64,000 nucleotides of DNA, taken from NCBI GenBank assembly GCA_947561395.2, contig OX387190.1:20578858-20642857 (forward strand), read 5' to 3'. The notes below the pieces were generated by a model. The model saw only the letters and a program-made list of their open reading frames with translations, was not told where the DNA came from and did no database searches. Below, one piece after another: positions 8,898 to 50,115 of this stretch; position 1 is the first letter of the stretch, and every line of letters starts with the position of its first letter. A program made the position numbers and the translations under genes. The stretch comes from Buxus sempervirens. Taxonomy: Eukaryota > Streptophyta > Magnoliopsida > Buxales > Buxaceae.

Positions 8898-9272
8898 TTT
8901 GAGAGCCAAAAATTGGTTTTTAGTGATACTTTTTCAACATAATTCAGATTCAGTGGACCAATTCTTGGTAATTGGGAATTAGTGACACTTTTTAAACATA
9001 ATTGAGAATAAGTGTCATTTTATTATCCATGAAGAATTTCTTCCAAAAATGCCCTCAAAAATACTTGCGAACCTCACTTGTACCTAAATGAGTGAAAAGG
9101 TTTTCAGAGTCTTTTGAGGGCATTTTCAGAATAAACTCTTTATTAACAGTAAAATGACACTGATTCCCAATTATTTTAAAAAAATATAACTAATTCCCAG
9201 TTACCAAGAATTGGCCAATATGAATTATTTTGAAAAAGTATCACTAATAACCAATTTCTATATTTTCTCAAA
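8898..9272. mobile_element. Fold-back element (long inverted repeats)
   Basis: Two arms of about 155 bp are inverted copies. The left arm carries TTTAGTGATACTTTTTCAA, CCAATTCTTGGTAA and ATGCCCTCAAAA; the right arm carries their reverse complements, including TTTTGAGGGCAT. About 50 bp of loop (about 9060-9110) lies between them. This is a MITE-like fold-back element. No target duplication could be recognised, so the superfamily is open. Confidence 0.75.
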
Positions 9273-11176: not shown

Positions 11177-11270
11177 TAAATTCACAATTTTTTTTGCTCC
11201 TGGAAAAGATGGCAAAAGTAAGAGAAGCATTCGCTTGTGCAGGGGAAGGAACAAATAGAATTGCACTGGC

Positions 11271-19126: not shown

Positions 19127-19815
19127 ATGGACTCCGCAACCGAGTCGTCGCTAATCGAAGCCCTAGAGAAGTCCATTTACGAAGGCATCCATGAACGATT
19201 CCGCGACTTCTTACAACCGTTCTCAGACCTCGTTAATCTCAAGCCATCGAAGAGTCAGAAGAATAAGAAGAAGAAAGCTGCGGAGGAAGACCGGACCGTG
19301 ATCCGTTCTCTAGCGAAGAAGTTTCTTCCCTTTCTAAATCGTGCTCTGTCAATTTTGCCGAAACGGATATGTGAATCCCCAAAACCAGGTGGAGGAGAAG
19401 GAAATTGGGTCCAGGAACTGTTCGATGCGTACAAGCTGTGCTTGGATTGCTTGTCGTGTTTATCTTCGCAGTTGTCGTGCAAACCATACTCTGTGCATTT
19501 GCAGGCGGTTCGGATGGTTCACTGCTATGAATCTTGTGGACGTTATGGAGAAGCTGAAAAAGAGGGTTTACGAATACTTGAGAGCCTTCGAGGGATTAAT
19601 TTTGGTGGTTCTGTTTGTAAAACGTCGAAGGGGAAGAATAATGGGGGAAGTTTGTTGCCGAATTTGACTAAGGAGAATTCGGATCCTGAACTTGCTATAT
19701 TACAGTTGGAGGTTGTTGTGACTATAATAAAATGTGCTTTTATGAGTCAGAATAAGGAAGGAGAAGCATATCGGAGGATACTTGCTTTGGTGGATCAGGT
19801 CAAGCCATGTCTCAG

Positions 19816-20830
19816 GTGAGAAGTTTTCTTCATTTTCAGAAATGCCTTTTATCTATAGCTTTTTTTTTTTGGCATATTAATCTATGAGATTGTTTGAGTA
19901 ATGGATTTAACAAGATACAATTTGGTGTTTAGCAGGTGAAATAAATTGCATTAGACAAGTCATTGAAAGTAATTTGGAAAGCTTTCTACACACTTTATTT
20001 AATTTAGGAGTTGGAAAATAATTCTACACATTGGTGCTTGATGTAAGAGTTGTTAAAGTAATTTTGAAAGCTTCCCGCACACTATTTGATTTAAGTGATA
20101 GAAAATAATTATCTGCAAGTACTTGACTAGTTGAATTCAAGGCATTCTCTGTTGACCTAGCATTATAATTTCGTCTTTTTAGAACTGCTACATATGTAGT
20201 TGGTCAACAATGCCAAATTAACAATTTTGATTACAACAGGCATGAAGGTAATTGTTAGAGAGAGCAGTTTTATTCAGAACAAAAGTTAATTACATTATTC
20301 TGTAGGCCCAAAAGGGAAGGGACCTGAAGGGTGTATTGGTAATTTTTCTTAATGTACCATTCTAGACTTGTCACTGGGGATTGGAGATATAGGTTGTATG
20401 TCCCTATCTTTTTTTCCCTTTCATAAAGCGAAAAACTTCATTCTCTCTTGTGAAACATGGGCACAATGATGAACCATGCAAATTTGTTTAATTGTTTTTT
20501 TTTTTCTTTCTACTGTTTTCACCATATTCACATAACAATAATTTTGATTAATAATCAACTGACACATGTAATAAAAAGGTTGCTGTCATGATTTCCCATT
20601 CATTATATAAGTAACATTCAATGTTGGATGAATTACTAGTTGGAAACTAATACAACTAATTAAAGTATCATCTAAAAGATAACTGTTAAAAATTTATGTT
20701 CTGAGTTTCGTGGGTATTTACTTGAATGGGTTGTTAGTCAGGCCATGAAATTATGAATTTTTCAGACATATCTTGGTCAAAATAACATGCAGTAAGCTAT
20801 TAATTTTTTTAAAAACTGTGAATCTTGTAG
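19816..20830. other. ESP1 intron 1
   Basis: About 1 kb of AT-rich intron with a T-run near 19860. No mobile element or gene was recognised. Confidence 0.6.
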
Positions 20831-21310
20831 GGTTATAGATGCAAACGAATTTGAGAAGTTTCACAAAGTGTTTGTCACCTGCCTGAATAAATGTATGCTG
20901 TTCATGATGGAAGAGTTCACATGTTTTGATGGAGATTTGGTTCGCTTATTCTGCTTGACAGCATTGTCTGAGTGTGTGAACTCATCTTTGAAGGATCAAT
21001 ACCCAAAGGTGCAGTTATATACAATTACCATCTGCATAATATTTGAAGGAATTATTTTTTATTTAACCAAATTTTTATGTCCAGTTTGTCCGCAGAATTT
21101 GTTCCTCTTTATTTTTGCGGAGGAATTGTAAGCCACAATTTGTTGTTGACATGCTAAAATGCGTGCTGGACTCATTTATCTGTGATTATAAGGTAATATT
21201 CATATTAAACCGGAAATTTCATATGTGATTTGGGTTGTTTGATATGATTTACATTACGTGAATTTAAATTCAGTAGATGTAATATACTCTTTCAATATCA
21301 ATTACTAAGA

Positions 21311-21423
21311 GGCTGTTTGGTTTAACTTTTGAAAGTTACTTTTTAACTTTTCAAAAGGAGAAAAGTTAAAAAATTCTACTTTGAAAAGTTAAAAAGTAAT
21401 TTTCAAAAGTTAAACCAAAGGGC
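21311..21423. mobile_element. Palindromic MITE in ESP1 intron 3
   Basis: This ~113 bp near-perfect palindrome has a left arm GGCTGTTTGGTTTAACTTTT, continuing GAAAGTTACTTTTTAACTTT. The right arm is its reverse complement with about three mismatches over 45 bp. It is a typical small hairpin MITE. The target duplication is unclear, so Tourist-like is only a guess. Confidence 0.72.
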
Positions 21424-23017
21424 TTCTATGCAAGCAATTCATAAAAATCTTGCTGTGATCGAAAATTTTGTTTTTGTATTTTTTTGGACGAAAAGATTCC
21501 ATATGCAAAAATCATTAATTTTTTCTAACTGTTTCTATTTTTCCTCTCTGGTATATATCATGAAGGCATTTGCATATTAAGCTTGCTTTTTTTAGAACTT
21601 TTTTACTTCAATCCTATTAAATTTGGATTTGTCGCTTCAATATCATTTAACCTAATCAATTTACCAGGGGGCTAAGAAAAGCCACTGGCTTCTGAAAGTC
21701 TTCTATTTGTAAAAGCACATGCTCATGTAGATGTACATGCTTTAAAGATTTGAGTTTTACTTTGTTTCTGTTATATGTTCATCATCTGAAAATAGCTTGG
21801 GTTCATTATGAGCAGGTTGATGAGGTCTCTATAGACGAGTTTATTGATCTTGTATGCTATTTCTCGCACAAATGTAGAACTGCAAGTATGATAATATCTA
21901 AAGCTATTGCCGGACATCTAATTGGAATAGCAAGTAATTTCCTTCAGGTATATGTTTTGGCTTCTGCTTGCCAGTGTATTTCTTTCATATACGTGCATAA
22001 GATATCCTTGTATTGCCTATGCAACAATATACAGTTTGGTAATGCATAATCTAAATACTGTTTAGCAGGTTTTGGTGCCCACTGATTTGGTAGTTAGGCT
22101 TTATGCTACTGTATTGTATATCACGGGTGGTGAGTTTCTGTCAAAGGGTGGTGAATCTTCAATTTCTGAAAATTTGGTCGATGATTCTGCTGTTGCATTC
22201 TTTCATGACAATGAGGAGTATCTGCAACAGTTGCCTTCTTTGCTTGATTCTTTGGGAACCTACTTTCGCATAAACAGAAAAGAGAATAAAATATCATCCA
22301 GCCATACAGATTCTAAGGCTTGGAAGCATAGGCATGGAAAGGCTTCCATGCTTTCTTACTTAAATGCTTTGGAATTCTTGTGCCAGGCACTTGCTGATTT
22401 AGTATGTAGAATGAGGAAACAAATACTTGGTGAAAATGAAGGTGTTCTATTTTCTGCTAAACTACATTTTGTTCAGGATGCATTTCAGCAGTATGGTGAT
22501 CTATTTCTCATTTCTTTCAGGTGACGCAATGGTGATCTTTGTTTTGTTGTATCTTTTTCTTTACAATGTATTTTTGTAATACTTTATGGGTTTTACCTCG
22601 AAATCTAATATGTATAAAATGCATTAGATCTAAACCTTGTCTCATCAGCTTGTCAACTGCATGAATCAAGTTTCATTATAATATTCTATACTTAAGTCAA
22701 TCACCATTCACTGATGATGATCATGTATTTACATTGTATGTGCATGCCTTTAATTGGGTTTATTCTTCAAAGTTGGCTGCATGCAGATTTAGCATATAAC
22801 TTAAATAAATATTTGGTTAAAAATTGTTGTTGTTGATTTGTTATTGATACAGCTGTACATTTGAAATTGAGAGAGATGGATTTAAGGAGAAATGGAAAAC
22901 ATTGCTTAATGTAGCAGTTGCAGCCCTTACAGTCTCCTTTGCAACAAAGATGAATATGGAGGTACTTGTTCTTGTTTTATGATATAAAAATGACCAAGCT
23001 TGTACTTGTTTTATGAT

Positions 23018-23192
23018 AAAGGTTAAAAAACTCCGTATCAGGTTGAATATTGGCCCAGCCCACTACCGAGTATTGGCCTTGCCCGATACTGAGTTGTATC
23101 GACCGATACTTCTGGAAGAAGTTCTCATATTGAGCTGATATTGAGTCGTATCGGCTGATACTTCTTGCTATCGGTCGCTGCTTGAAACCTTG
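23018..23192. mobile_element. hAT-type MITE in ESP1 intron 6
   Basis: This 175 bp element is flanked by a perfect 8-bp duplication TTTATGAT (23010-23017 and 23193-23200). The ends are AAAGGTT on the left and, reverse-complemented from the right, CAAGGTTTCAAG. The interior repeats words like GTATCGGCTGATAC. The 8-bp duplication and CAAGG/CCTTG ends are hAT features and match the ends of the 5.8 kb hAT at 25484. Confidence 0.78.
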
Positions 23193-23418
23193 TTTATGAT
23201 GCATTGAAAAGTCTTCATTTTCTTACATAATAATGTAGTGATGGTGCTTGTTTTTCTCTATCAACTAATCAATTTAGCTCATCACATTGCAGGGAAGTGT
23301 GGATCTCATTGATCGTATCGTTTCAACTGAATGGATCCAGCCTCACGAGTTAAAATTCCTCTTTACTTCTTTGTACAACACTGGTATAGTTTTGTACAGA
23401 ACTAAGAAAACCAAAGAG

Positions 23419-24599
23419 GTATTTTTCTTTAGAGGAGTTGGACTTTGAATGGGATTGCAGTATGGAGTTGCTTTAAATGAAGTTGCTTGGATGATATTCT
23501 CATTGTATCATCTTATTATTTTCTTTTGCTTCTCGTTGTGCAAGTAATTTATTGATTGCTATTTTTCTCTATTTTTGCTTCCTGCAATACAATGCTTGTA
23601 GCTTTGCTTGAAAGGAACATGTCATCTGATTGGCTTGGTGCCCTGTTTATGTGAATGTTTGCATGTTTTCATTTTTCTTGCTTAGTCCCTGGTTATATGC
23701 ACGCTAGGATCTTTTCTGTCTAAATTTCGTTTCCCTTGTGGCCTTATATTTGCTTGTGGCTAGCTATTTGAATCCTGGATTGCATTTGACATGATCTAAT
23801 TTGTGGGCCCTCAAAAATGGGAAATGGTAAATATTCCTTGGATGGAATGCAGAAAATACTTTACAAAGGAGATTTAGTTTTAAAAAATTTTTCTATTACA
23901 ACTATCATTTTACTTTATGGATACCTGCAGTCATTGCTATTGGTTCTGTGTTCTTCTTTTGGTAAATTGTTGAAGGTTTGGAGATTTGAAATCACGTATA
24001 AGGCCATTTTGATTGGGGGGGGGGGGGGGGGGGTGGTGTTCAGGAAAATGTTCCATTTACTATCTTGAATTATAAAAGACAGTATCCAATTGAAATGTTG
24101 AATGGAAGAATTTGGAGAAGGTTTTTATTTTATGTTTTAATGTAGTGGAATAGATGGTTAAAGGGGTTGAATTGTTAGAAACTTAAGGCTTCATTAGTTT
24201 GGTTTGATGTAGGTTCTATGACTTTGGACTCTCTATGGATGCAGAATTAGTTTGTAGAACCTTATGGAAGTTTGCTTATTTTTCTTAAAATTATATAAGT
24301 TTATTGAAATCTTACAAGAAAGGAAAGTTTAATATTTTCCCGTTGAAGATTAAGAACTGATAGAATAAACAATACGTTAAATCATTATATGGATAAAAAA
24401 TATGCTTAACATGAAATTTGAAGTCAATGCCTGATCACATACATTCTTGTATTTATCTAAAGCTGTAATTCGAAACTATACATGGATATGCAATCAATAG
24501 TTAATAACCCTGTAATGGAAGCCTTACAGCTAGGGTATCACATAACTAACCAAGTCACAAGATCACGTATGGATGGATTAACTTATAGCTTGGAGATGT
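23419..24599. other. ESP1 intron 7, 5' part, with poly(G)
   Basis: No gene was seen. A run of 19 G lies at 24015-24033. Confidence 0.6.
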
Positions 24600-25440
24600 T
24601 CCTTCATTGTATTTAACTTATAGAGTCTTGGGAAATTGTTCACCTTCAGAGAAGACAATAAAAGTTAGTGTCATTATTCTCCTAGTTCAAATGGGGACAA
24701 ATTTGTGGGGCCTGGATATTCCTCCCTGGATTGTTTATTTGCGTTGTGCAGGGTTGAATTTTGGGGTTGGGTCTTTGTTTATTTGCAGAATTGAGATGCT
24801 CTGCTTTGTTATCTTTCCAATGATTTTTTCATCGGCTTTTGGCAAAGAAGTGATCATTGATAATGTTGTAGTGGGGGGTAGCCATCTCCTTGATGTGGCA
24901 TTTTAGATGGTAGGGATATTTTCAGTTGAGAATGTGACTCATTGAAAGCTTGCTTGGAGATACTCCAAGCCCCATGCAGTCATTGAAAAGGGAGTGATAG
25001 CAAGGTCTAGGAATGAGACAGGAGAAGCACCTTCTTTATGAAATCTTTCTTTGCTCTCTCTGCGAAGGCACCAATGTGTAGCTTTGCATCTCTTATTTGA
25101 GGATATTCTGATTTTATCTAAGTGAATTCCCTTTTGCAGACAGTTTTTGGGTAAGATAGTAATGACATACCATCTCATTTGTGGGAAGTGGGTCTTGCCA
25201 ATTGGTGCATTTTGTGCTAATTTGGTGCAGAAAAAGTGGATCATCTTTTGTTGCTTTTTCCTCTTTCTTTGCAATATATTGAATTACATTTTGGGGAGGA
25301 ATGTGGTGAATTGTGTCATGCCTAAATATTTGGTGGACTTCCTCTGGTATGGGAAGTTCAAGAGGATGAAGGGTAAGTTTCAAGCCATGTGGAATGTTCA
25401 CCCAGTTGCTTTTTTTTTTTTTTTTTGGGCCAAAAGGATT
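24600..25440 (+). pseudogene. LINE (non-LTR) reverse transcriptase tail remnant
   Basis: Frames here read FSSAFGKEVIIDNVV then VGGSHLLDVAF. After a damaged stretch comes a frame with LGKI, a Cys-rich part and an E-K-V-D-H-L-L-type motif (about 25150-25260). Then VMPKYLVDFLW and WNVHP follow (about 25315-25405). Order and wording match the region after the RT and the zf-RVT domain of plant LINE-1-like elements (WCxxCxxxxESVDHLLLHC). Several frame changes and a T-run at 25411-25427 show strong decay. It lies in ESP1 intron 7, sense to the gene. Confidence 0.65.
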
Positions 25441-25475
25441 AGTATAATAAAAACAAATTGTTGAACATTTAAGAG

Positions 25476-25483
25476 ATTGGGAC
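25476..25483 (+). repeat. hAT target site duplication, left
   Basis: ATTGGGAC, identical to 31266-31273. Confidence 0.88.
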
Positions 25484-26069
25484 CAAGGATCGACTTTTCG
25501 GTGATTTGGGGTGCGCCGGTAGGCGGCCGAAACGAAATTCTGACGAAATTTCGCTGAAATTCCGACGAAATGGCTCGAAACAGCATTTTTGGCGAAATCG
25601 GCGGCACGCCGCCGAAACGCCTTTTTTGATTAAAAAAGATGAAATTAAATTGTCAGAAGGGCCATTTCGCCGAAATTGGCGGCACGCCGACGAAATGCCT
25701 GTTTTAAAAATAAAAAACATAATTAAGCTAAAATAACATAATAGACATGATTTTATACAATTTATATGCAAAAATAGATAGAATAAATAAGTATTTGATC
25801 TAATTTATGAACAAATAGTCAAATACAACACACATGAACATAAGCAATTACAAGGCTACAACTGTAAGCACATTACATCACACTTTGTAACATGTGTTAC
25901 ATACTTACATGCGTAAAACAAAGTCATAGCCTCATAGGCACATAGATTAATAATCATAAAAATTAAAAAGACAAATTGCAAAAAATGCAAAATACAAAGT
26001 AGAAGTCTACAAGAGAGTCAAGAGATAAGAGACAAGAGTCACAAGATTACAAAGTACAAACTACAAAGA

Positions 26070-29000
26070 TCAATAAGAAGTAGAATGTCTAGAAGGCTGG
26101 AAATGCTGATGTTGTTGCTGTCGTCGTCTCTCAAGCATGTGAACATATCGCCTCCATGACGTGCGCCCTGCGTACTGACTTCTGTAACGACGCACAACCT
26201 CTTCATACTCATCCTGATCTAAATCCACAATAAAGCCCACAGGAGGACACTCATCATAATACTCCCTCATAATAATAACACCCGCATCCTCATCTTCTTC
26301 CCCTTCCTCCTCCTCCTCCTCCTCTACTACGACTGGTGGAGGATAATAACCATATGGATATGGGATAGCTGGGACTGGCACTGGCACTGGCACTGGGACA
26401 TACCCATATCCGTATGCAGCTGGATATGGAGCTGGTGCAACTGGATATGAGGGAAAATCAAATAACCCATAGCTGTCAGATGTGTGAAACTGCCCAGGAT
26501 ATGGATATGCATATCCTCCATACTGCCCACTCTGATCCCCATAACTACGTGACGATGTACTGCTAGATCCCTCCATGTCCATACTCATAAACGATCGAGA
26601 CATCTCATCCTCGTCCTTGGCACCAATCCTCTCCTTCCCCTTACCCCGCCTCTGAAAAGTACGTGGCTCTGGATCTGACTGATCACCCTGACTGTATCGC
26701 CCTCCATGGTGGGTGTCCTGGGTGGCATGTGTGTACACTGCCTCCCCAGTGAAAGGACTAACCCCTGGCCTATGTGATTGTCCTCCACCTCCCTGATGAT
26801 CATTTCCACCATCATCGTTGTCATCATCATTAGACCCTCCACCATCCCCACTATCTCCATCCTCGGAGTCAGACTCTGTACCCTCAATTGACTGAACTGG
26901 GACTGAGGGCGTCGCTGCTGCTGTAGAAACTGAAGGGGGCACTACGCTGGTATCTCTATCAAAAGAGTCAACAGAAGGAAATCCCCTCTCTTCCTCCATA
27001 ACAGCATCAACATCAATCCCCATCTCTGCTGCGGCGCGAGCAACGACTGAACTTGGCCCACCATTAGGCTCGTCTAACTCCGCAGTCCTCACCCATTCTG
27101 AGAATGGGTTGTCTTCATCAATCCGGGTGCTGCATAGGATGTCCAGAGGGTCGTCAACATATGCACTACTACGCTGTGTCTCGATCTCCAGCTGTTTCGC
27201 TCGTAATCTCATGTTGTAGTGACAAAACACGAGCTTTTGTAGCTTCTGATAGGCCAGCCGGTTCCTTTGCTTTGTATGAATCAACGCAAAGGTGCTCTAG
27301 TTACGCTCGCAAGCAGATGAGGATGCAGTCTGAGCGAGAATCCGACACGCAAGCTTCGACACAGTGGGAGCACAACCTCCGTACATGGCCCACCATTCGC
27401 CTGAAACGTGTAATGATTTTCAATAAGCATAAAATAAATTTAGAAATTCTAAATGATTTACCAAAATGTAGTAAATTACATACATGGCATCATCGTACTC
27501 CGCGAGGCAATGGCAGTTGTCATTCCAAATGATTCCATTGCATCTCTAAACTTGATCAACTGCAAGAGCATGTTCAGAATTTAGTAAAAATTGAGGAAAA
27601 GATTCCAAATTACAATTGATAGAGCACTTATTTATTATTTATATAGAATTTACCTCATTGCCGAAATCTGCCTGCCCGGTAGAATTGGGATCGAGGTGGG
27701 AATAAACCATCAGCACAGCTGTCCACATATCTGCGCGCATCCCAAGGTTGTCCTTGTAGTGATATTTTGGGTTAAAGTAATGTGCTGTTATTGTGTTTGA
27801 AAAGAAAATGAGAATTAATAAACAATTTAGCATTATCAAAGAAGTATAAGTATAAAAAAAATCAACAAACCTTAATTAATATTATAAATTAATTACCTGC
27901 CAAAAGTATGGGATGCTCCATCGATTTAATCCAACGATCATCAATGATCTTGTGGACCCACTGGTAGGACGACTCTGCGGCAATTTGAACTTGTTCTTTC
28001 ATCACCCTCATGCTCTCATAGATGGAACCGAGGGTCGGGTATGAATCTGTATCAACAATCCGTAGCACCCTGTAAATGGGCTCCAATATATCGACAACTT
28101 CCTTCACACCATCCCAAAAGCTGCCACGAAGAACGATATCCTCTACTTCCCTCCCCTTCTCAGTGCGACTATGAGAGCAAGCACCCCAATCCTCACTAGT
28201 AAATAAGGTTCTCAATCCTTGCTTGTGTCGGAGCATGCTATCCAAGGCAATATAATTTGTACCAAATCTAGTAATCCCTAGCCTGATTATATCTCCATGA
28301 CATACTGCTCTCATCTTCGCTAACACATAATTATGATTATAAATAAATGTAGTCAACTTCCGAGCATCTCGTAGTGTCTTCTTCACCCTCTTCCTCTTCC
28401 CAATGGCCTCTAACATCAGGTCTATACAATGTGCAGCACAAGGGGTCCAGTATATGGGGTACTTCGCCTGTATCATTTGACCAGCCTTCTTAAAGGCACT
28501 CCCATTGTCTGTAACAATCTGTGCAACGAGATGTATCCCAACCTCTCTGATCACCTCCTCTAGTAAACCAAAGATGTACTCTGAATCCTTGATTTTATCT
28601 GAGGCATCTACAGACTTCAAAAAGACGGCCTTGCCTCTACAATAGACCATAAAGTTGATGATTGACAGCTTCGTAGGGCCTGTCCAACCATCACACATAA
28701 TTGAAACCCCGAATCTCTCCCAATATGGACGCAAAGATTTAATAAATGTCAGCATCTCTTTCTCTTCATCATCCAAATAAACCCCCATGATCTCTTTCGG
28801 TGTAGGAGGTAGGACTCCAACCCCAGACTCCTGAATAACGTCAACCATACTCTTAAAATGCGGAGAGGAAGCTGCATGTGCAGGGATATGGTTGAATATG
28901 AAGAACCGAGATATGAACTTACCCATCTTCTTTCTAACTGATCCTCCACTCCAAGAATCTTTCAGCCTCTTCTGCTTCGCATCTGATGATCTATGTGTGT

Positions 29001-29547
29001 CAGGGTCCACAGGATAATCAGGCATTCTCGTAGAATGAGAACGCCTCAAAGAAGCCGACCCACCAGCCCCAGAATGACCGCCTCTCTCAAATCCATGTCT
29101 CTGCATCTCTCTCCGCTCAAACTCTGACTCCAGGGATGCATGGTGTGCTGCTCTATACTGGGCCCTCTCAGCCTCTGTGTCGATCCCGCTAGGGTAGACA
29201 AAATCATCATCATCCTCAGCTACCCGTGGAGGCTCTGCTAGTCTCCGTCTGATCTCGTCCTCTATAATATGCTTCGTTTTTCTGCTTTTCACACCAATCT
29301 GTAGGTGCTCACACATCTGCTTTTTAACTGCAGGTGGCACTTTATTACAATCCTTGACGTCCTTGGCACCACCTGCCAGATGCATCTTCAGTCTGGATAC
29401 ACCTCCCCCCTTGAATACATGACCACAGTAATTGCATACTGTCTTATTTCTGTCTCCCTGATAGCGGATACCATGCTGCCATCCAATATCTACTTTACGT
29501 CCACCCGTCTCGGCACCATCACCACCACCAGATCCTGATGCCATCAC
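26070..29547 (-). pseudogene. hAT transposase (BED finger, DUF659, hAT dimerisation)
   Basis: Four exons on the minus strand: 27897-29547, 27654-27784, 27484-27559, 26070-27400. All have consensus borders and continuous phase, about 1,062 codons. The N-terminal BED zinc finger has C38, C41, H56 and C67. The DUF659/catalytic region carries CDGWTGPTKLSIINF and IVTDNGSAFKKAG, with Asp residues of the hAT DDE triad. The C-terminal hAT dimerisation motif SSSACERN is followed by TAG (27297-27299) where the family has Trp, then STFALIHTKQRNRL. The last ~250 residues are low-complexity (acidic runs, Tyr/Pro-rich, VPVPVPVPVP), an unusual tail. Without that stop the gene would be open. Catalysis would be cut-and-paste transposition. 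Confidence 0.88.
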
Positions 29548-29679
29548 CCGCTAGGCCGCTACCTAATCACCTGAAAACAGTAGGTTACCTGTCGAAGTGT
29601 CAATTCCAAATTTCCAATTTACAAACAATTAAACAAAGTATCACTTTAGCATACCCATCTAGAAAATAATCAACTAAAA

Positions 29680-30340
29680 AAATAAAAGTTTGCACGCCCA
29701 TCTAAAAATTGGGTGTCCACAGACTCCACACTTCACATAAATATAATCCATATTTTTACTAATTTTTTTCAAATTTTTTAAAATTTTTTTAATTTTTTAA
29801 TGATTTTCGGATTAAATAAACAATTATTTATTCATTTTTTACAAAAAAATAAAAGTTTGCACGCCCATCTATAAATTGAGTGTCCACGCTTCACATAAAT
29901 ATAATCCATATTTTTACTAATTTTTTTCATATTTTCTTAAATTTTTTTAATTTTTTAATGATTTTCGGATTAAATAAACAATTATTTATTCATTTTTTAC
30001 AAAAAAATAAAAGTTTGCACGCCCATCTATAAATTGAGTGTCCACGCTTCACATAAATATAATCCATATTTTTACTAATTTTTTTCATATTTTCTTAAAT
30101 TTTTTTAATTTTTTAATGATTTTCGGATTAAATAAACAATTATTTATTCATTTTTTACAAAAAAATAAAAGTTTGCACGCCCATCTATAAATTGAGTGTC
30201 CACGCTTCACATAAATATAATTCATATTTTTACTAATTTTTTTCATATTTTTTTTATTTTTAAATGATTTTCGGATTAAATAAATATTAATTATTCCTTT
30301 TTTACAAAAAATAAAATTGTGCACCCCCATCTATAAATTA
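29680..30340. repeat. ~158-bp AT-rich tandem repeat inside the hAT element
   Basis: Four clear copies begin with AAAAGTTTGCACGCCCATCT near 29687, 29847, 30007 and 30165. A worn fifth follows near 30310. Each contains TGTCCACGCTTCACATAAAT and TGATTTTCGGATTAAATAAA. Further degenerate copies may reach 30690. It lies between the transposase start and the right end of the element. Confidence 0.85.
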
Positions 30341-31265
30341 GGTATCCATGCTTCATATAATATTTCATATTTTCATCCATATTTTTACTAATTTTTTTCA
30401 CTTTTTAATAATTTTTTCAAATTTTTTAATGATTTTCGTATTAAATAAATAAATAATTATTATTGTTATTGTAAATTTGTAATAGTAATACTAATAGTCT
30501 AATACTATAAAACATTCTCATTATATTATTAATATGTTATTTTTAAATAAATAATTAATTATTTTCGTATTAAAAAAATAATTAAAAATTATTTTTAAAT
30601 GATTTTTCGTGTCAAATAAATTAAAAAATACTAATTTTTGGAGAAAAAAAAAAGTAACAACACCCATCGATAGATCGGGTGTTGTTACATAACATATAAA
30701 AAAATCAGTACAATCTAAGTTAATTACAAGCATAAAAAAGGGAAAAAACATGATTACCTCAATTTTACACTCTTCAAGGCTTCAAATCACACAAAAACTG
30801 ATGGAGATTGCAATCCCAAGCTTCAATCCTTCTCTATCTTCGATTTGGAAGAGAATGGAACAGCTAATTTGAAGAAATTCAAAAAAAAATTTGAAATTTG
30901 GGGGTTTTCGAAACCCCCTTCTTCTGTTCGTCAAGATTTCGCCAGTTCTGGCGAAATCTCGACGGCACCTCACCTTTTTAAGGTGAGGTGTAACCCCAGC
31001 GCTTCGCTGGGGTTACGCGAAACGCAGCGAAATTTTGCTGCGTTTCGCTGGCACCTCAGCGAATCTCTGAGGGGCCAAAAAAATTTATATTTTCCCTGCG
31101 TTTCGCTGGGATTTTGCGAAACTCAGCGAAATTTCGCTGAGTTTCGCCGGCACCCCAGCGAAACGCAGGGGAGAGGGTTTCGATTTGGTTTTTTGTGCCG
31201 CTAAGGCACCGAAATACGAAATTTCGGAGGCACCTCGCGAGGTGCCGCCGAAACGGCAAACCTTG

Positions 31266-31273
31266 ATTGGGAC
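31266..31273 (+). repeat. hAT target site duplication, right
   Basis: ATTGGGAC, identical to 25476-25483. Confidence 0.88.
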
Positions 31274-33939
31274 TGCCATGTCACAGGGGCTTGAGGGGGC
31301 TAATTTTTCTTCGTTTTGTGGGATGGTGTACAAAATTTGTTGTATAGGATTTTTAGTTTCATCTGGTGACTGATTTTTGTTTGTTTGCTTCTTTCTGTAC
31401 ATTGCCCTTCCTTTTATAAATTAAATTCAGGTATGAACTTGTTAAACAGGGCAATATTAAGCTCTAGTTAAAGAATTGACATTTATTGACCCAAATGTCT
31501 TGTCGAGACATTGAAGGTAAATCATATAGCATCTAACAGGCTACATTTTAAAATGAATTGCAGAAAAATAGGACAAGAGGAAGTAACTTGACGTGGACTA
31601 GGACAAGTCTGCCATCAAATTGGGAGTTGTTGTTTGTCCTTGCCTGATAACAATGTGCCAACCAATTAGAACTTGTTAGCCGGCCTTGTATCTAGTAGAC
31701 TGTCCATGCCTGAGAATAACATTGGGCTTAGTACGTATAAATAAATCATGATAGTAAATGTACCGTTGACATGGCTCCATATTAAAATGATGTTGTGTAG
31801 AAGTGTTAATAGGCTTCTTATTTACTATCTTATTTGCCAACAGCTTTAATATTGAGATTCTTTCAGTCTTTGGTTTTTTTGGCATTTTGGGGATGGGATA
31901 TTCATTTGTTTCATTGGTCTTTCTTTGCAGGCCTCAAAGGCATTGAATTTGTGTTGTAGAATGTCTTGGAATTGTATTTCACTCCTCTGCCAGAAGTTTG
32001 TTGATAAACCTGAAAGGATCTGCTACAATCTCTCTGAAGATGTGATTTTGGGTTTTGTTACCGAGGCTTGTGAAAGAAGTGCATTTCTTCTAGATATTCT
32101 CCATCGACTTGGCAATCATGATGTGAAAAAGTTTATTGTTGATACCCTTTTGAACTGGTCTATTGCTGGAAACTTGTTTGAAAGTCTAAATGGTCCTATG
32201 CCATTGGTGAAGCAATGGGTTAAGGTATGCATGAAAAAATTTCCTAGTAATTTCACTATGTTCTGCATGTTGAATGCTCTTTGATAGTTAATTGATCTCT
32301 AGATTGTCTGCAAAGATTTTAATAATGACGATATGGAAAAGAAAGCTCCAACTCTCTATTCTTTGCTCTCAAAATCTCCTGTGCTGTTGTCAAAGAAGAT
32401 TATTAGCATGATTTTGGAGCAGGTTTGGTCTCTCAGTGATGATTTCCTTGTAAATTTTATGACTAGTTGTCATTTTCTCTTTTTAGATATTGATGTCTAT
32501 TTTCCATGTGCTTTATCACTTGAGTTGCATGTAGGAACTTGTCGCATATGAAGGAATACATGCGCAATACCCCGTTCTCTCTCAGATAATGCAATTACAA
32601 ATCATCAATACTCTTCTACTTGATATATATGTTACAAAGGATTGTCGTTTACACAGAGCAAAGATTTTCATTAGGAAAGGAAAGGCTCTTAGGGCTCGCG
32701 GGATTGATGATCTAAACGAATGTGTCCAATGTTTGTCAGAGGCAATATCCATACTTGTGAGCTTGCTTACTTTAGTTTACTTTTGCTTTATTTTGTGGTA
32801 CATTAAAAATTGAAAATTAATATAATTAATCCTTTAGCAATTTTCTGTTGTTTATGAAATTGACAAAAAAAATTGCTGTGTAGAATGAGCTGTCGTTTGA
32901 GCCTTCCATCAGTGATACTTCAATATGTCAAAATTTAGCTCTTGTGTACTGCTTGCGTGCACTATGCACCCAGGAGGCAGAATCAAAATCGGAGGTGATA
33001 TTTTAGATGTCTATTAATATAAATAAGTAATTTGATACTTCATATGCATTAATTTTGTTTTTGGATAATAAAAATGGTTTAAAATGAATCTTTTTTTGGT
33101 TTATGTGCCAAATAGGTAATCTTCAATGATATCTGTCATGCACTCAGACTATGGGAGGGTGCAAATAAGCAAGGATATTGGTCACCGGATGGTCACAGTG
33201 AGATGATGATTGAAACCACAATAAAAATTTTGTTTCACGTTGCTGATTTGCTATCACTGAAGGCAAGACTTATATCATGTTTGGACGGTATCAGATTTCA
33301 TAATCAAATAGCTAGAATTCTTTAAACTATTGTGAATTCATCTGATCATGTATATATCTGTTTAATTTTTACATCATCAAGGTTAGATGCACTTCCACGG
33401 CGAAATCTATAAGCTTATCTTTATATTAATGAAGCGAAAAAATATCCCATTGGAAAATTGTTTATGCATGCTATGGGCATCTGGAAGGCTTACTCATGCT
33501 CTTTGTGCTTCACCTGTTGATGAGGTCTTCATCTCAATCTTCTCAGAGCACTTTGGTACCGATTCCAACTCCTTTGGCTTTTGGAAAAGTTGTATGAAAG
33601 ATTCCCAACCATTGCTTGCTGGATTTCAACAGAAGTTCTCATTTTATTTTCCTAATATGCTCTCACTGGGATCTAACCTTCCTGAGAGTCATTTTCTTTC
33701 ATATGTCATTGTTGATCGGGTGAAAAAAGCTGCATCAGATATCCTTTCAAGTGTAAGTTTCTTTGGAATAGCCAGAGCAGTTAACAAAATAATTCATGCA
33801 TTAATATTCTTATATTATTTACATTAATCTGGTGTTTCCATTGTCATAGGTTCCTGTATCCAGTCATTCATCTTTTCTTGTTGGATATCTTTACCATGAT
33901 TTATGTGAAAGACTCATCTTAACCGGGCATCTTCTTGAG

Positions 33940-35429
33940 GTAATTAATTAGTTTTAAACAAACCAAAATTTGCTATCTAAACGAATATGATCAACTCATT
34001 CAATTGGGATTTGTAATTGCATTTTGAATTACCATGAAGTGAGTTTTCATCTTGAAAGGGAATCCTTGGCATCTTTGCTCTAATTTATCAACTTACTAGT
34101 ATTACACTGTTATAGAATTATTTATTGATTTTAGGTTATTCTGATAATAATGTGTTTTCAATGAGCAATATGAGGTGATAATTGAATCCTTTCAAGGGAT
34201 GAGGCAACTTAATCCGGTTTAATGCAACCCAGTGATGCAGCAAAACAGTTTGAACTTTGATGTTGAAGAAGTAAAAATAAATAATAGAAACTGTTTGCCC
34301 CAAAATTTGTTGATTAGTCGTCATGGCTTAAAGCGGTTCAAATGATCTACTGTATGGCATATTGACTGTTATATGTATTAGAATGTGGGATTGAACAAAA
34401 CAAGTGGACAATTAGGAACACCAAGATAGACAGGATTAGTAATGGAGATAGTGAAAGTTATCCAACTGGATATGTGTGTATAAGGGGAGTTTTAATGGGG
34501 GATTCAAGTTGATAGAAATGATCAGGTGGTGCCTTCCCCATTAACCCAATGTAGAGTATGCTCTTATCTACCACCCAAAGAATTATGATGAAGGGGTCCT
34601 TTTTCCTGATGCAGCAAACTAAACTTTCTTGATGCACAGTAGAAGTTTTAATTTATGGGAATCTAGAGTATTGAGAATACTCAAGATGTATAAAGTTTTC
34701 GTACACTTGTGTTTCTCAAGAAGAAGATTGCTTTGCACATTGGCAATGTCGAGCATATGTTTGCATGATGGAAGTTTTGTTTATAACATTAATGTTTGGG
34801 ACTCATCCATAACAAAAGATGCATGCATTTCAACAACGGTTTAATCAAAATTAACAACCTAGGATGCCTACAAGCATATTAGGTTTTGTGTTCCCGTTGT
34901 ATTTTTGTTGTTTCTTGAATCCTTCATTTCTCTAATACGCTGAATAAGAAACAAGCATTGGCTATGCATGAACATAAATACATCAACATACACTCACACT
35001 CAACTAAAGCACTTGCTTCCATTTATGTGTGTGCATGCACATGTAAAAGCAAATTACTTGCCTTAGGATATATGTGTGTAATAATTAGGTCATAGATCAG
35101 GAAAAACTTTGCACAATTTATGTTGCAATGTACATTTTGGAATAATAAAGATGGAATCATCCCCGTGTGTCCAACAATATGCTAGCACTCGTTTCATCTT
35201 GATAAGTGTCTGTCATGGACATCTATTGGAACTTTGAAGGTGTCCTACATATCAGAGCCTTGTTTGGATGCTTACACGGATACCTAGCTGATAGTGTTTG
35301 GAATGGAATTGATTTGGACAAAAATATTTGGAATAAGATGAGAAAATTATTTCTTAAGACTGAAATCCATGATAATATAAACTAGAACACCTATTACTTT
35401 TGGCACCCTGGAAATTGACTGCTTTTCAG
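33940..35429. other. ESP1 intron 14, expected exon not found
   Basis: This interval should contain the conserved separase segment that follows the HLLE at the end of exon 14. In plant homologues it reads roughly ALxYAKEAHRLR and onward. I searched the three plus frames by eye and found no such stretch. The DNA here is AT-rich with no obvious transposon ends. Confidence 0.5.
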
Positions 35430-38282
35430 TGATTTGTCAAAGAAAGTGCAGAAAAGAATCCACAGATGAAGTATGCTTGTGCTAATATCCACCTATATAG
35501 ATTAGTAGCCATTGAAGTTTGGCCATCTGAGAGTCACTCATTGGACTTGGAAAGTTGTATTCTTAGTCCATGGAATGTACTTCAGTGCTACCTTGAGAGT
35601 GTTTTGCAGGTTTTACTTCTGTTATTTTTTTGGGCTGTGGTTTAGAAGTGAACATTGATCTACAGTGTAATTAACATTATGCTTTTGTATTGTCATCACG
35701 TAACAAATAGGTCGGATTTATCCATGAAGCAATTGGAAATGGAGCTGAGGCTGAAGCTGTTTTACTTTGGGGGAAAAATATCTCCTACACACTTGGCTTG
35801 CCAATTTGCCAAGTTGCTTTTGCATCTCTATTAGGTATTTCCTTTTATATTGTTCCTTATCTTCATGATAGTTGATGGCACAACTATTTAATGTTTGCAT
35901 AAAGTTATCTGTTGTTTACATAAAATATATTTTGCTTGTAATTTTCTCTAAGGAAACTATATCGTAAGAAGCAACTTTGGGAATTCGCAGAAATTGAACT
36001 TAACAGTGCGAAGCAAATTTTAGTAGATGCCAGCTCAATTATTTCATGCAAACGGTGCAAATTGACATTTGAAGTTACCATTGATTAGCAAATTGGTGAT
36101 CTAAATAGAAGTCAATTTGATGTAAGTGAAGGGATTTCATTGGTCAAGAGCTCATATTTTGCTCTGGGTCTTTACAGATCAGCCCTTGAAAAATTGAATC
36201 ATTTTGAATGGGAGGATTCTCTTAGCATATTAGACGGAGAAAATGTTGGAAGTAATATGCTCAGGAAAACTCTTTTCAAGGAGGCTAAACAAGATGATAG
36301 CAATACTAGTGCTTATTATGGAACAAATCATTCCAATACCTTCTACATGAAGATGGAAGCTGACATGGCGATGGGTTCATTGAAAGATTTTATTTGCATG
36401 AAATGGGAGTTTCGTCGCAGGCGACTTTCATTGAAACTACTAATTGGTATAGGTATGGTGGAACTGCCTATTGATAGTTTTTGCTGCGTGAGAATTTTTG
36501 ATATGTATTACATTGATATGCGCGCATGTGTGTGTGTGGGTACGTGCTCATGTGGATGTGCTTGTATGCGCATTCATGTGTTTTATATAGAATTTGAATA
36601 TTTGTCACCTTTTCTTCTATCTAATGGATATAGCATCTAAGAGTTTTAGGGCTGCAAAGCAATGGTTTTCTCCACTGTTAGGAAAGTTAGGATTGAATTA
36701 TGGCCTGAAATAAGAAAGGGTAACTTTTAGTTCATTGACTTTGTTTTTCTCAGGGAAATGCATAGGTATCGATGGCCAAATTCATGAAAGACATGAAATA
36801 TTTTGGCAAAGTATGTCTTTGCTTGTTAGCGGAAAGCCATTTTGTCATACTTCCGCTACTACTTCATTATCCTCGTTGCTTGATTACATTGGGAAGGAAA
36901 TTCCAGGAGATTCATTTGCCATCGAGCGTGCAGAAATACTATATCACATATGTTGGTTTTCTTTGAAGAATTATCATTCAATGGATTCCAGGTATTCTCA
37001 AACAACCACAAATATAGTAACTGAATGTCTGTATATATGCTCTCCAGAAATTTCTTGTTTACTTCTCTCCCTCTTTTCCCCCATGTCTATTTGTTGAGAT
37101 AAGCCATGCTGGATTTGGCTTACATTAATGCTCTATGCCAGATTTTTGATCATTTTTAATGGGATTTAACATATGTCTAGAAAATAAACATCCTATTGTA
37201 TCTGCCAAATATTTTGAGTTATAATTGTTATTCTCAATATTTGGGACAAGGAATTTCTTTGTTTTCCTGTTAACAGTAAATGTGTTATCATATATGTGAG
37301 CTCTAATAGTTAGTCGATAACCAATACATTTCATATTACTAACATATTTTTCATCCCCCCTTCTTTCTTTTCTTCTTACCAAGGCTGCTTGCTGTGCTTT
37401 GTCTCATGTTCAGATATCAGGAATAGTATCTTGGTTGTTGCAAGCTTTCATACTTTCCCGTGAGCTTCCCTTGATTTTTCAAAAGGTTGAAATATTCCAT
37501 CTTTTTGATGATCGGAATTGATTATTTCGGGAATACCGTTTATCTCAGAGTATTTTAGTTATATCTTCTAATGCCAATGCATTATAATCTTTCTCTACAG
37601 TTTGATATTTGTAAATAACTCCATATTTTGTAAGTTGGTGATTTGAGGCTGTTTTTGTATTGGTTCATATGAAGTCATAACATGGAGCATGTTCTATCTA
37701 ATATGTTTTAGTTACATTTTGTTATAGTGGTTGATCTTGTAAATCCAAAACTCCTTTCATGTCATTTTCTTTAAGTTTTCAAGGAATTGAGTTTTAGTAG
37801 AATCCTTTTAGGGGGATTCTAGAAATGATATTTGTTAGGTTTCTGTGCTAAATAATGATGGGGAGTATTTCATCTGTTCAAGCGTTGGTTAATTAGATGC
37901 ATTCAATTGCTAGATGAGGCATTGAGATACAAGTTTCAGTGTCATATGCAGAGGTTTATTTTCTTTTTTTCATTTTTCTTACCTCTCATTTTTCTTTTTC
38001 TTTTTTATTTTATTTTTTCCCCATTCTTGTTCACTTAGCCTTTATAGATAATAACAATACTTGATATTTAAAACAATACTACAGGTGTCCAGGTTGCTTG
38101 CTTCAATATTTTTACTTTCCTGCTTTGGTGGGCATTTTTCCTTGCCTCTTTATTTTGAGAAAGATCTATCGGGATGGCATTGGGCTGCGTACTTTCATCA
38201 GGCTTCACTTGGAACGCATGCGAACCACCAGCTCCTCTCAAGTATGGGTGGAAAGCTTGTCACTAACTCCGGGAATTTTGAG

Positions 38283-39809
38283 GTATATCTTTGTGCTCCT
38301 CTTTTCAGCTGCTCCTTATTTGTTCTCCTTAGATAAACCACTTTGTGTGAGTACTTGTTGTTCTCGATCACTAGATTCAAGTATGCTTTTCATTTTACTG
38401 GTATCATTTCACATATTCCTTTTCTTCATGTACAATCTCTTGATGCAGGTTACATAGACAATATGTAATTGAATAGAAATGTCAATTGCCTGGTTTCCTG
38501 AACCTACTTTCTTTGTTATTGGATTTACTAGTTCCATAATTGGTCGTCAATTGAGCCATAAATAGCATATCCAGATTTTAGTTTGACCATAAATTCTAAC
38601 TCTTGATTGGAAATTTTAATATGTGGCAGTTGTCCATCTACATGGTCCTTCTAAACCACATCAATGTTAGCTAATGTTTCTCAATGCTAAGGAAAGAGTT
38701 GAGTTGTTCAAATTTTCAAAGTGTTAGGCCTGCGCCTCAGTGCATAAGGTGCAAAACTAATAAGCATGTAGAAAAATTTATCAACAAGTCATAAACTGTA
38801 AAATATAACAATATAAATAAAGAAATATATGTGGCACAAAGTAGGAGAACCCAAATTTTATTAGAAAAATGTTTGTATTACATATTCATGATTTTCATAA
38901 GCTTCATGACTTAAACTACCTCATGGAATTTCCAAACTGTTAAATTATGCAATATACATGGGTATCTTTTATCATATGTGAAAGTAAATCAAAATTAATT
39001 GAGGAAAGAAATTATGCAATTATGGTTTTCCTTTCACTCATATGCACACTGCACAGTGTATGTCTGCCACTGGTTCATATTGAGAACTTGGGATCCTTTA
39101 TTTTACTTAATGTATGAAGCACAATACTTGGACTCTGGGGAACTTCATGGGTCAAATGGAAGACATGTTAGTTTTACCTTCGGAGGTGTGAACGTATTGG
39201 GACTTAAAGTCTCTATGTTCAATCCTCATAGAAATCTTCGTAAGTGTTTTCTTTAAGGTACATTTGGATTTTGAGAGAATTTGGGAAGCGGTTTGGAGGA
39301 AATAGAAGAAATTATTAGAAATAGTCTTGTGGGCCTTGTTTTTTCTCATGGCTCGTTTTCATACCTCTCCATCAAGAATAAAAACAGCTTGTTTTGATTA
39401 CTTAATTTCTCAAAAGGAATGGGCCTCACTACTATCCTTTTTTTCTCTAAGTAACTAAACACGTGCAGAATGTGGGAGAAGTTGCTTTTCCTACATCTCT
39501 TGCATTCTCTTGACATCCGAATGTAGCCTTAGGAATAAGCCTCATTGAAATTATTGTTATGAGACTTTTCTAGTTGGCCATATGCCAAAGGCTATAAGTT
39601 GCAGTTGCTTGGTGGTCTCAAAAAAATTTTCACATATGTTAGCTTCTGTTAACTTCATTCAATTGAGCAATTTATATTAATGGCTAGAACTCTTCTTATT
39701 ACGATTTTTAATTTGCACTGATCTAGTGGATATCCCAACTTTTGCAATGTTGGAATTGGTGGTTGTTTGTCCTGTGCTATAAACTTGCATAAGTATGAAA
39801 GGAAACTTG
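38283..39809. other. ESP1 intron 20, 5' part
   Basis: AT-rich intron sequence with no gene or clear repeat. It precedes the SINE insertion. The intron continues to 41242. Confidence 0.5.
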
Positions 39810-40052
39810 GATTCTTAATATAAAAAAATGGCTAGCCTAGTGCACAAGGCTCCCGCCACCGCTTGGGGTCTGGGGAGGGTTTGATATACATAGCATTACC
39901 TCCACGAGCTGATAGATTATATCTTGTGACTTGAACTTGAGACCTTTAGGCCGCAATAGAACTACCTTTCCATTGCGCCAGGGCTCGCCCTCAATCCTAG
40001 ATTAATATATTTTAAAAAAAAATATACTAAACCTAGATTCTTAATATAAAAA
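39810..40052 (+). mobile_element. Au SINE with target duplications
   Basis: The body (39827-40035) begins GGCTAGCCTAGTGCACAAGG, the hallmark start of plant Au SINEs. It continues with CTTGGGGTCTGGGGAGGGTT (pol III A-box area) and a B-box-like segment (about 39935-39950). It ends near ATTGCGCCAGGGCTCGCCCT plus an A/T-rich tail. GATTCTTAATATAAAAA is repeated exactly on both sides (39810-39826, 40036-40052), a 17-bp target duplication. It lies in a separase intron, sense to the gene. Confidence 0.88.
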
Positions 40053-42214
40053 GTATATTCCAAATAATTCATTTTTGGGTAATCTTAAAATTAATAGTTT
40101 CAATTGTTGCAAGCCTCTTGGAAGAAAATTTTAAGAGTCGTCTATTTTGTATCTATGTAAAACATATGGGCATGTCTCATATTGACCAAATATATAAAAA
40201 CAGTTGCAAAAGAAGCTCGCTGAAGCTTTGATTCGTTGGATAAGAATGAGTTGGTGACTGATAAAAATGCGAGAAAATAAAAGGACTATTAGTAATGAAA
40301 ACGAAAATCGAAGTTAATAATGTTCCGTAGATGCATGACCCATCGGGTCTTTTGAAGCTTTACTTCATAACAGGTGCATAAAATCTAGCACTGTTGATTT
40401 CAAATATTGTCAACATTCACAATTGCACATGTTGGATGTCTTCTCACTTTTATTGTAAGTGTGGCCTTCTTGTGTAAGCATTATCATTCATAAATTGGTC
40501 AAATGCAGAGTTGTGTTGGAAGAATTATTCTGTATATGAGTTCCTATTGGAGAAAAGAACGAAGGGGAAAAGAGAGAAGGGGACTTCTCAATGTGAGAGC
40601 CGTACCCATCACTTAATTAAAATATGTAAAGTGTGGATTCTGGAAATACCCTTGGCAAATACAAATTTCTTTTATTGGTAACAGTTATTACGTATACCAG
40701 ACAGCCCTTAAGTAAAATTATTGACGAGGATATATACTACCGGCACAACATTACCTTGAGTTGCGGCACAATATCTTAATCAAAGATCCCCAAATTTGAT
40801 CAATACATTTTGAAAAAGAGTATTAAGCTGCATGCTTGGTCATGAGAATGTTTTCCAGGGAGCACAAATTATGTATCTATTATGTTTTGTAAAATGTCTA
40901 TCGAACTTAATATGCTTGGTTTATCATGCTCACAACTCAAAATGTCATATGGACATGCTTGATGTTCACACCTCTACACTATGTCATTAAGCTGCATGCT
41001 TTTATTTTTTCTTGTCTTGCTGCTGCTAGCATCAATTTATATTTCACACCTTCAAAAGGAGCGGTAATCTTTTGTTGACATGAACTTTGACATTGTTTGT
41101 TGCTCCTTGGTATTTTCCTGCCAATAGGCATTAAAATTTTTTCCTACATTATTTTGTTGAATGGCGTACTGAAATACCTACAAAAAAAAAAAGGAAATAA
41201 GAATTATTGTTTGGTTACTTCATTCGGACTTCTTGTTTTTAGGAATCAAATATTGCAGTTTCATTAAGTACCAGGATAGAAATATGCAACTTAGTCAGGT
41301 GATCACTATTAACTTTCCAATGTGGGGGATACCATATATCAATATGAAAGATGTGGCTATCACATGTTTGTTCCTCTACTTGTTATGTTTTTTGTTATTC
41401 ACACCATTGCTGCAGGCTTGCTCCAGAAACAGTTAAAGATCTAAAAGAATTTGTGAAACATTTTTATGAAACCTTACCCAGCACTACAGTCATCTGTATA
41501 AGTTTGCTTGGAAGTGCATATACTATTCTGCTGAGGGAGCTGCTAGATTCTCCTTACTCTTTTCCTGCTTGGTTGCTAATATCACGTTTCAATTCAAGTA
41601 TCAACCTGTTGTAATGCTTCTGCCAGTTAATTCAATTCTAGAAGGTGCTCAATCCTTTCATCGTTTTGCGTAGAGAAATACATACATTTACTCATTTATA
41701 AATTCAACATGCTAATACATAGTTTCTATTAGATGTTCCGGATGATGCAGCCAATTCTATCCTGGGTTATGTCACCGTGAGCAAAGATACGTGTAAAAAG
41801 TGGTCCTGTCCTTGGAGCCCTGATGTTGTAGATAAGGTAGCCCCACAGTTCAGAATGATACTTGAGGAGAACTACCTTTCATCCTCTATGTCTTCAATGA
41901 ATGATACACAAACAAGCAGGTTGCTTTGGTGGACATGGAGAAAGAATCTCAATCATTGCCTTGATAGATTCTTGAGGTAGGTTTTTTTCTACCAATTGAG
42001 TGGTTGTGTGTTTGCTCCCGCTTACTGTTTATATTTATTGATTTATCCATGCGTTTGTTGGCAAAAGCATGAGAATCATGAATGAGTATGCATGTGAGCA
42101 TACAGGGGATACTATTGAGTTCAAAGTCCAATGAATTTTTTGTGTAATTACTAGAATAACAGTCCATCTTGCACCTAAATTTTTTTAACCCCTGTAATTT
42201 ATACCAAATTGTTT

Positions 42215-42515: not shown

Positions 42516-43024
42516 GGTATGGGATATAAGCATAGGGTACATCATGGAATATTGCATACAATAACCTCTTGGGAAATAAAAATTTAGCTTCATTCTAATG
42601 TAATATCTTGTTTATGTTGTGCAGTAGTATGGAAGATTTGTGGTTGGGGCCCTGGAAATGTTTGCTTTTGGGTGAAAGGTCTGACTACGAACACTTGGAC
42701 TCTCTAATGGAAAAGCTGATTGACAACCTGAAATGCCAATTCAGACTGAATTCCTATAAGAATCTTATCAGAGTTATTCTTGGGGGCGCTAGATATGCTT
42801 CTGAAACAGAAGCATGCATTTCCCAAGTACTTCAGCACAACGGCTACCTTGGTAGGGGAAGCTGTTGTAAGGAAGAAAAAAATGAGGCACAGTCGGACAG
42901 TTGGGATCGAGTAGAAATTCTTTCTGAATCAGCTAGCCATTTGGTAGTTGAAGCTGCCAATGAACTTCAAGAAGGATGGTTCAATAGGGAACCGATAATT
43001 TTGGTGCTGGACTCTCAAGTCCAG

Positions 43025-49046: not shown

Positions 49047-50115
49047 ATGCTTCCGTGGGAAAATCTGCCGATATTAAGAAAGAAAGAGGTTTACCGCATG
49101 CCTTCTGTGGGAAGTGTTTCTGCAACGCATAACAGAAGCTGCATTCATCAAGAAAAAGATGGGAGGATTGTTACTGCTTTTCCATTAATCGATCCCTTAG
49201 ATGCATTTTATTTGTTGAATCCCAGTGGTGATCTCAGCAGAACGCAAATTGAATTTGAGGACTGGTTTAGAGATCAAAAGTTGGAGGTAGTATCTCAATT
49301 TACATTTATAGGTCTAAATAATTAAGTTTTTCTATCTAATTTGTATTCAAAATTATTTATAGACAACAAGATGTTTAATTGGCATATCATACAGGGGAAA
49401 GCTGGAATGGCGCCCACAACTGAAGAGCTGGCTTTGGCCTTGAAAAACCATGATCTTTTTATATACTTTGGGCATGGAAGTGGTATGCCTTGGACTGCTA
49501 CTTACCACCCTGTTGTTCACATTGGTCTTCTTGCTTAGTTGCTACATCCCGGTTCCTACATGGGCTTGTTTGAGGATCAATTGATGATTGTTTATATGTT
49601 CAACTTTTTCAGGAACCCAATACATGCCTCAGCATGAGATTCAGAAGCTGGAAACTTGTGCTGCCACCCTTCTGATGGGCTGTAGTAGTGGATCTCTGTC
49701 TCTGATGGGCTGCTATACGCCACAAGGTGCTCCTCTCTCTTATTTATTAGCTGGTTCTCCTGTCATTGTTGCCAACCTATGGGAAGTTACAGACAAGGAC
49801 ATCGATCGATTTGGAAAGGCTATGCTTGCTGCTTGGTTGCAAGAAAGATCAACTGCTACTGATTGCCCTCATCGCAATTTAGTGAAAGAATTTGAGTCCA
49901 TGAACATACTTGGCAACAGAAGTAAGAAAGTCCGAAGAAAGAAGTTGCAGAAACCTTGTGATGGTGCCATACACAAGGACTGTTGTGGCCCAAGGCCAAA
50001 GATAGGATCATTCATGTGTCAAGCCCGGGAGGCTTGCACACTCCCATTCTTGATTGGGGCAGCTCCAGTATGTTATGGTGTCCCAACAGGTATAGCGAAA
50101 AAGAGGGATATATAG
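49047..50115 (+). other. Separase peptidase C50 domain (last three exons)
   Basis: The domain begins [11 protein letters not shown] and continues through [19 protein letters not shown]. The catalytic His is in YFGHGSG (CAT at 49473-49475, motif split by the last intron). The catalytic Cys is in LLMGCSSG (TGT at 49681-49683). The conserved [14 protein letters not shown] and [14 protein letters not shown] follow. Both catalytic residues of the clan CD fold are intact and the three exons join in phase. The active-site region therefore looks undamaged although the middle of the gene does not. Confidence 0.93.

Follow-up and report, generated by a model that had tools for sequence, protein, structure and literature searches.

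What becomes of a separase gene whose reading frame is broken at five points while its active-site exons read open? Separase is the protease that lets chromosomes part, cleaving the cohesin kleisin at anaphase. A null mutation of the Arabidopsis gene leads to embryo abortion, according to PMC3084865. The first-pass annotation of the window, by which we mean the whole stretch of 64,000 nucleotides analysed (C12:20578858-20642857), had stated that a dead copy of this gene implies a second functional gene, a recent duplication or assembly errors. The expectation of a second gene and a recent duplication is supported by a sister copy that is open across 27 exons and differs from the broken one by 1.96% in noncoding DNA. 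We put the probability at roughly 0.93 that the copy in the window is an unprocessed separase pseudogene, which arose by duplication of a block of about 44 kb on one chromosome, and that the intact sister copy supplies separase.

Separase loci in the assembly

The assembly (676.5 Mb, 247 contigs) was searched with the Peptidase_C50 profile (PF03568) and with the DNA of separase exons 1 and 17; the searches scored best candidates only and covered the assembled sequence. All matches are on C12, namely 11 of 11 with the profile (in three places, nine above the cut-off), 10 of 10 with exon 1 and five of five with exon 17. They are confined to three copies, A, B and C, plus a cluster of exon 1 fragments. 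The control for the profile search was positive in 0 of 14 genomes.

C12, window 19127-50115, + strand: separase copy A
C12:20820245-20848991, + strand: separase copy B
C12:20913116-20934808, + strand: separase copy C

B lies about 222 kb downstream of A (222,261 bases from start to start), and C follows about 93 kb past B (92,871 bases). A search of the whole assembly for a second ESP1 locus had been advised by the first-pass annotation; it yielded B, which is open, together with C and the fragments. Just past C, C12:20937333-20938161 and 20938241-20939012 contain fragments of separase exon 1, in both orientations, and of its upstream region; seven of the ten matches to exon 1 fall in the former interval. 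These pieces are a predicted fourth, fragmentary separase copy. No duplicates or pseudogenes of plant separases were found among the literature matches listed, PMC4060054, PMC2680839 and PMC3084865 included.

The 27 exons of B join into a single open frame, a coding sequence of 6,333 nt for 2,110 amino acids with its sole stop at the end. All 26 introns are consistent in phase; 25 have GT-AG boundaries and one has GC-AG, and the GC donor, located after exon 12, is common to A, B and C. The predicted product matches, in this order, the separase TPR regions TPR_ESP1 (E=2.6e-114) and TPR_ESP1_2nd (E=2.4e-39) in its N-terminal part (PF25110 and PF25113) and Peptidase_C50 (E=2.8e-96) at the C-terminus (residues 1595-2007). 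Over its last 276 residues the product matches 11 distinct sequences of solved separins or separases, the best being 7nj1_A (E=1.5e-36), which we take to be the human protein. The GHGSG and GCSSG motifs of B align with GHGAG and GCSS of 7nj1, and the His and Cys in these contexts are presumably the catalytic residues. We infer that B is expressed and functional and supplies separase.

C has diverged further and decayed much more than A, and by its sequence is a clear pseudogene. It contains ten stop codons found in C alone, insertions that shift the frame in exons 1 and 12, and a 334-bp insertion in exon 17; five of its 18 alignable acceptors are broken. Exons 5-7 and 21-24 have no aligned sequence in C, and exons 4, 15 and 16 are partial.

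The five lesions of copy A

Alignment with B gave the following exon map of A.

19127-19815, 20831-21008, 21085-21192, 21816-21947, 22069-22520, 22853-22961 and 23293-23418, + strand: exons 1-7
31931-32224, 32303-32422, 32535-32756, 32884-32994, 33116-33262, 33387-33752 and 33850-33939, + strand: exons 8-14
35435-35609, + strand: remnant of exon 15, the rest deleted
35711-35834, + strand: exon 16, intact
35952-36452, + strand: exon 17, position taken from B
36754-36991, + strand: exon 18, intact
37383-37485, + strand: exon 19, position taken from B
38085-38282 and 41243-41298, + strand: exons 20 and 21, without indel or splice-dinucleotide change relative to B
41416-41644, + strand: exon 22, with a one-base deletion
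41733-41976, 42625-43024, 49047-49286, 49395-49482 and 49613-50115, + strand: exons 23-27, without indel or splice-dinucleotide change relative to B

The exons numbered 15, 17, 19 and 22 at first reading have the same numbers in the 27-exon model of B, and all five anomalies reported for A are present where they had been placed. The nature of three of them had to be revised after alignment with B and C, which gives a tally of one 222-bp deletion, two transitions at acceptors, a nonsense transition and the loss of a single base. Whether such anomalies exceed chance was judged from the intact sister copy and not from a statistic.

The deletion affects exon 15. B and C each hold 222 bases more than A (a count that includes a 3-base overlap), and the loss took the acceptor, cattag/GCTCTTTCATATG in B and C, along with 89 of the 264 nt of exon 15 when the repeated TGT is assigned to the exon. 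The junction in A lies at 35435-35437 (+), and TGT is repeated at both ends of the missing stretch in B and C. The earlier view that exon 15 opens with a TGA derived from CGA does not hold, since the TGA at 35430-35432 (+) is intron 14 DNA that reads as the same TGATTTGT in B and C.

At the start of exon 17, the acceptor at 35950-35951 (+), AG in B and C, has become AA in A (ctctAG/GGAAAC in B and C; ctctAAGGAAAC in A). Due to this G-to-A change the nearest AG lies one base downstream, which shifts the frame and mimics a lost base. The base thought to be missing at 35953 is therefore an acceptor mutation, and no base is lost there. Further into the exon, the TAG at 36086-36088 (+) is CAG in B and C and was rightly called a stop. 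C has a TAA of its own one codon after this site.

A difference of the same kind replaces the base loss proposed at 37384. The exon 19 acceptor at 37381-37382 (+), AG in B, reads AA in A and also in C (ccAG/GGCCGC in B; ccAAGGCTGC in A and C), and this common state would reflect either two hits or a change on the branch of B. By a hand calculation, the chance that at least one of the two broken acceptors of A (exons 17 and 19) is among the five of 18 broken in C is about 0.49, so that two independent hits suffice. Gene conversion between A and C was considered as a source of the common acceptor and rejected because sites unique to A and sites unique to B are unclustered (344 sites, 181 runs, P=0.83), a result that leaves room for a very short tract. 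Within window 37381-37386, A equals C against B at the AA and at an adjacent T, and there is no wider tract of A-C similarity.

The last lesion, a one-base loss near 41597 in exon 22, was borne out by comparison with B, whose AAA run is AA in A (TTCAAAGT in B; TTCAAGT in A); the region is absent from C. Outside the five lesions, no exonic indels or splice-dinucleotide changes were found between A and B in the 27 exons. The argument that both stops arose by C-to-T change is valid for the TAG and lapses for the TGA; the changes at the two acceptors, G-to-A, belong to this class too when read on the opposite strand. Two ways of reconciling the frame by splicing had also been considered. In one, exon 17 would contain a short intron, with gtaaga near 35962 as donor and its acceptor at the TAG, so that both lesions of the exon are spliced out; it was rejected because B codes through the stretch in frame. 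The other, an alternative exon 18 donor (ATA/GTAACT, near 37017) conceived by eye to rejoin the frame with the AAG of exon 19, was dropped because B needs none. As comparison with the sister copy demonstrates, apparent base losses at exon starts can be acceptor mutations that shift the AG by one base.

The first stop of A depends on how it is read: codon 1049 with the TGA read, codon 1052 if intron 14 is retained, and codon 1113 if exon 15 is skipped and exon 17 is entered at the shifted AG. Thus, even with an in-frame skip of exon 15, A stops ahead of the protease domain, which begins at about residue 1595 in B. Exons 23-27 encode the Peptidase_C50 part with its GHGSG and MGCSSG motifs, and the observation that the active-site exons of A are intact stands; given the positions of the stops, these open exons lie downstream of the breaks. 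An automatic gene model of A could be labelled separase, which calls for caution in annotation.

It appears barely conceivable that A is a working gene whose lesions are bypassed by overlooked splicing. Individual lesions could be avoided, with the frame kept, if exon 15 (264 nt), exon 17 (501 nt), exons 19-21 or exons 22-23 were skipped, but the lesions in exons 15, 17, 19 and 22 need to be bypassed jointly, and a product dodging all of them would be several hundred residues short. Moreover, the exons of A otherwise align with those of B without indels, which marks the lesions as departures from a common exon structure. A presumably yields no working protease.

A different possibility is that A works as a separase-like regulator, an N-terminal TPR protein of about 1,050 residues that lacks the protease domain. 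Exons 1-14 (19127-33939) indeed form 1,048 codons with zero stops and have the same splice dinucleotides as B. In those codons of these exons that align in A, B and C, which excludes exons 5-7 and part of exon 4, changes unique to A are, however, 12 nonsynonymous to 3 synonymous, which gives no sign of constraint in these small numbers, and a 5.8-kb transposon resides within intron 7. We regard this role as extremely unlikely and retain the interpretation of A as a pseudogene.

A duplicated block and its divergence

The homology between A and B extends beyond separase to a block that also contains a PPR gene and NDC80.

Window 6366-50412, 44,047 bases including the transposon: A-B segmental duplication with PPR gene, NDC80 and separase
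C12:20807645-20849288, 41,644 bases: B copy of the block
Window 6398-7969: PPR gene, A copy
C12:20807670-20809270: PPR gene, B copy
Window 25484-31264, - strand: hAT-type DNA transposon in intron 7 of A, with BED zinc finger, DUF659 and CAAGG/CCTTG ends

The transposon is present in A only, being absent from B and C, and is flanked by an 8-bp target-site duplication, ATTGGGAC, at 25476-25483 and 31265-31272. We take the 8-bp duplication, the CAAGG/CCTTG ends, the BED zinc finger and DUF659 to be features of hAT elements. Gene content, with the PPR gene and a plant transposon protein as examples, indicates that the DNA comes from a plant. In the same intron, about 3.3 kb of B (20825904-20829215) and C (20916648-20919963) are missing from A at window 24777-24781, which represents either a deletion in A or an excised element. 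Elsewhere in the block, a tandem array of a 20-base repeat (23.9 copies) occupies window 10281-10756, and the alignment with B has a 20-base gap there.

In the separase region, noncoding divergence amounts to 1.96% between A and B (426 of 21,768 sites), 4.87% between A and C (676 of 13,885) and 5.00% between B and C (869 of 17,395); the exons of A and B differ at 101 of 6,243 sites. Assuming 2 to 7e-9 changes per site per year, A and B split about 1.4 to 5 million years ago, although the rate of this plant may differ. Sites unique to A (167) and to B (177) are nearly equal in number, as would be expected if C branched first; in this unrooted comparison of three copies, that order is provisional. 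Divergence per kilobase between A and B is about 2% in the separase body (from 20 kb on, range 1.2 to 4.1%) and 0 to 0.6% at 8-16 kb (window 8000-15999), where NDC80 is located. The near-identity around NDC80 suggests later gene conversion or an assembly effect. The first part of the PPR gene (6366-6999) differs by 4.1%, above the rest of the block save one kilobase of the separase body.

It might be argued that A represents a haplotype of B left unpurged, or that its lesions are base-calling errors. A divergence of 1.96% is within the range of heterozygosity of outcrossing plants, the two copies are nearly identical over NDC80, and the one-base loss in exon 22, which is in a short homopolymer, could be an assembly error. 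Yet A and B are on one contig with their starts 222 kb apart, C12:20750001-20950000 is without any N, and the collinear homology ends at window 6366 and 50412 when compared with this interval, which contains both flanks of B; a duplicated haplotig would carry the flanks along. Four of the five lesions, namely transitions at two acceptors, a transition to a stop codon and a 222-bp loss at a TGT repeat, do not resemble homopolymer noise. The clean 8-bp target-site duplication of the transposon in A and the presence of its exon 19 acceptor state in C likewise speak against an artefact, which we consider very unlikely. The deletion and the substitutions are hard to attribute to assembly error.

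Nonsynonymous and synonymous changes were counted per branch in those codons for which A, B and C all align, covering 4,434 of the 6,333 coding positions, and compared with a neutral ratio of 2.6:1, which rests on a transition weight that we chose. Changes unique to A comprise 27 missense, one nonsense and 12 synonymous (28:12, p=0.73 against neutral), and those unique to B 17 missense and 14 synonymous (17:14, p=0.043). The changes of A look neutral-like and those of B constrained, and the difference between the two ratios is not significant (Fisher p=0.22). C departs from neutral with 76 missense, ten nonsense and 56 synonymous changes (86:56, p=0.0026), as does A compared directly with B (63 nonsynonymous, including one stop, to 38 synonymous, p=0.034). 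Since even a clear pseudogene and the direct comparison are off neutral, these ratios are a weak witness here; the departure of C may reflect time spent as a working gene before it decayed. Omega on the B branch is about 0.47, which is not low for an essential gene. If the five lesions of A are taken as the neutral rate, the Poisson probability that B would have escaped any such lesion in an equal time is about 0.7%.

The PPR gene has 12 matches in the assembly, of which two, the copies in A and B, are full-length. It is open in A (523 amino acids from stop to stop), and in B a tandem-like insertion of 7 bp shifts the frame after about 170 residues. The first NDC80 exon has two matches in the assembly, again in A and B, and is open in both with two amino-acid differences. 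Of the two blocks, separase thus reads open in B only and the PPR gene in A only. We tentatively propose, at somewhat short of even odds, that reciprocal decay sorts the block, with A keeping the PPR gene and having lost separase, B keeping separase and having lost the PPR gene through the 7-bp insertion, and NDC80 remaining nearly identical. If this is true and the PPR gene matters, neither block would be expendable, the loss of either by unequal crossing-over would be harmful, and the locus would offer a test case of divergent resolution inside a single chromosome.

Comparison with known separases and pseudogenes

The case is one of ordinary pseudogenisation after segmental duplication. Presumably the block with the PPR gene, NDC80 and separase was duplicated on one chromosome, whereupon constraint on A would have relaxed. 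A would then have acquired the deletion of the exon 15 acceptor, the two acceptor transitions, the nonsense transition, the 1-bp deletion and the hAT insertion in intron 7. With one copy still open and two in decay, this local duplication bears on how duplicates of an essential gene return to one working copy.

Like the separase known as AESP or RSW4 in Arabidopsis and as separin ESPL1 in humans (peptidase family C50), B combines TPR_ESP1, TPR_ESP1_2nd and Peptidase_C50, as judged by comparison with profiles and with the sequences of solved structures rather than with the Arabidopsis sequence. By contrast, A is unable to encode the whole protein, and one open copy is accompanied here by two broken ones. 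A fits an unprocessed pseudogene in that it retains introns and collinear noncoding DNA and has five lesions absent from B. As in other pseudogenes of this type that derive from local segmental duplication, upstream DNA is kept along with the introns, the copies reside on one chromosome and the lesions gather on one copy. What differs is that the losses of the block are reciprocal, with separase broken in A and the PPR gene in B.
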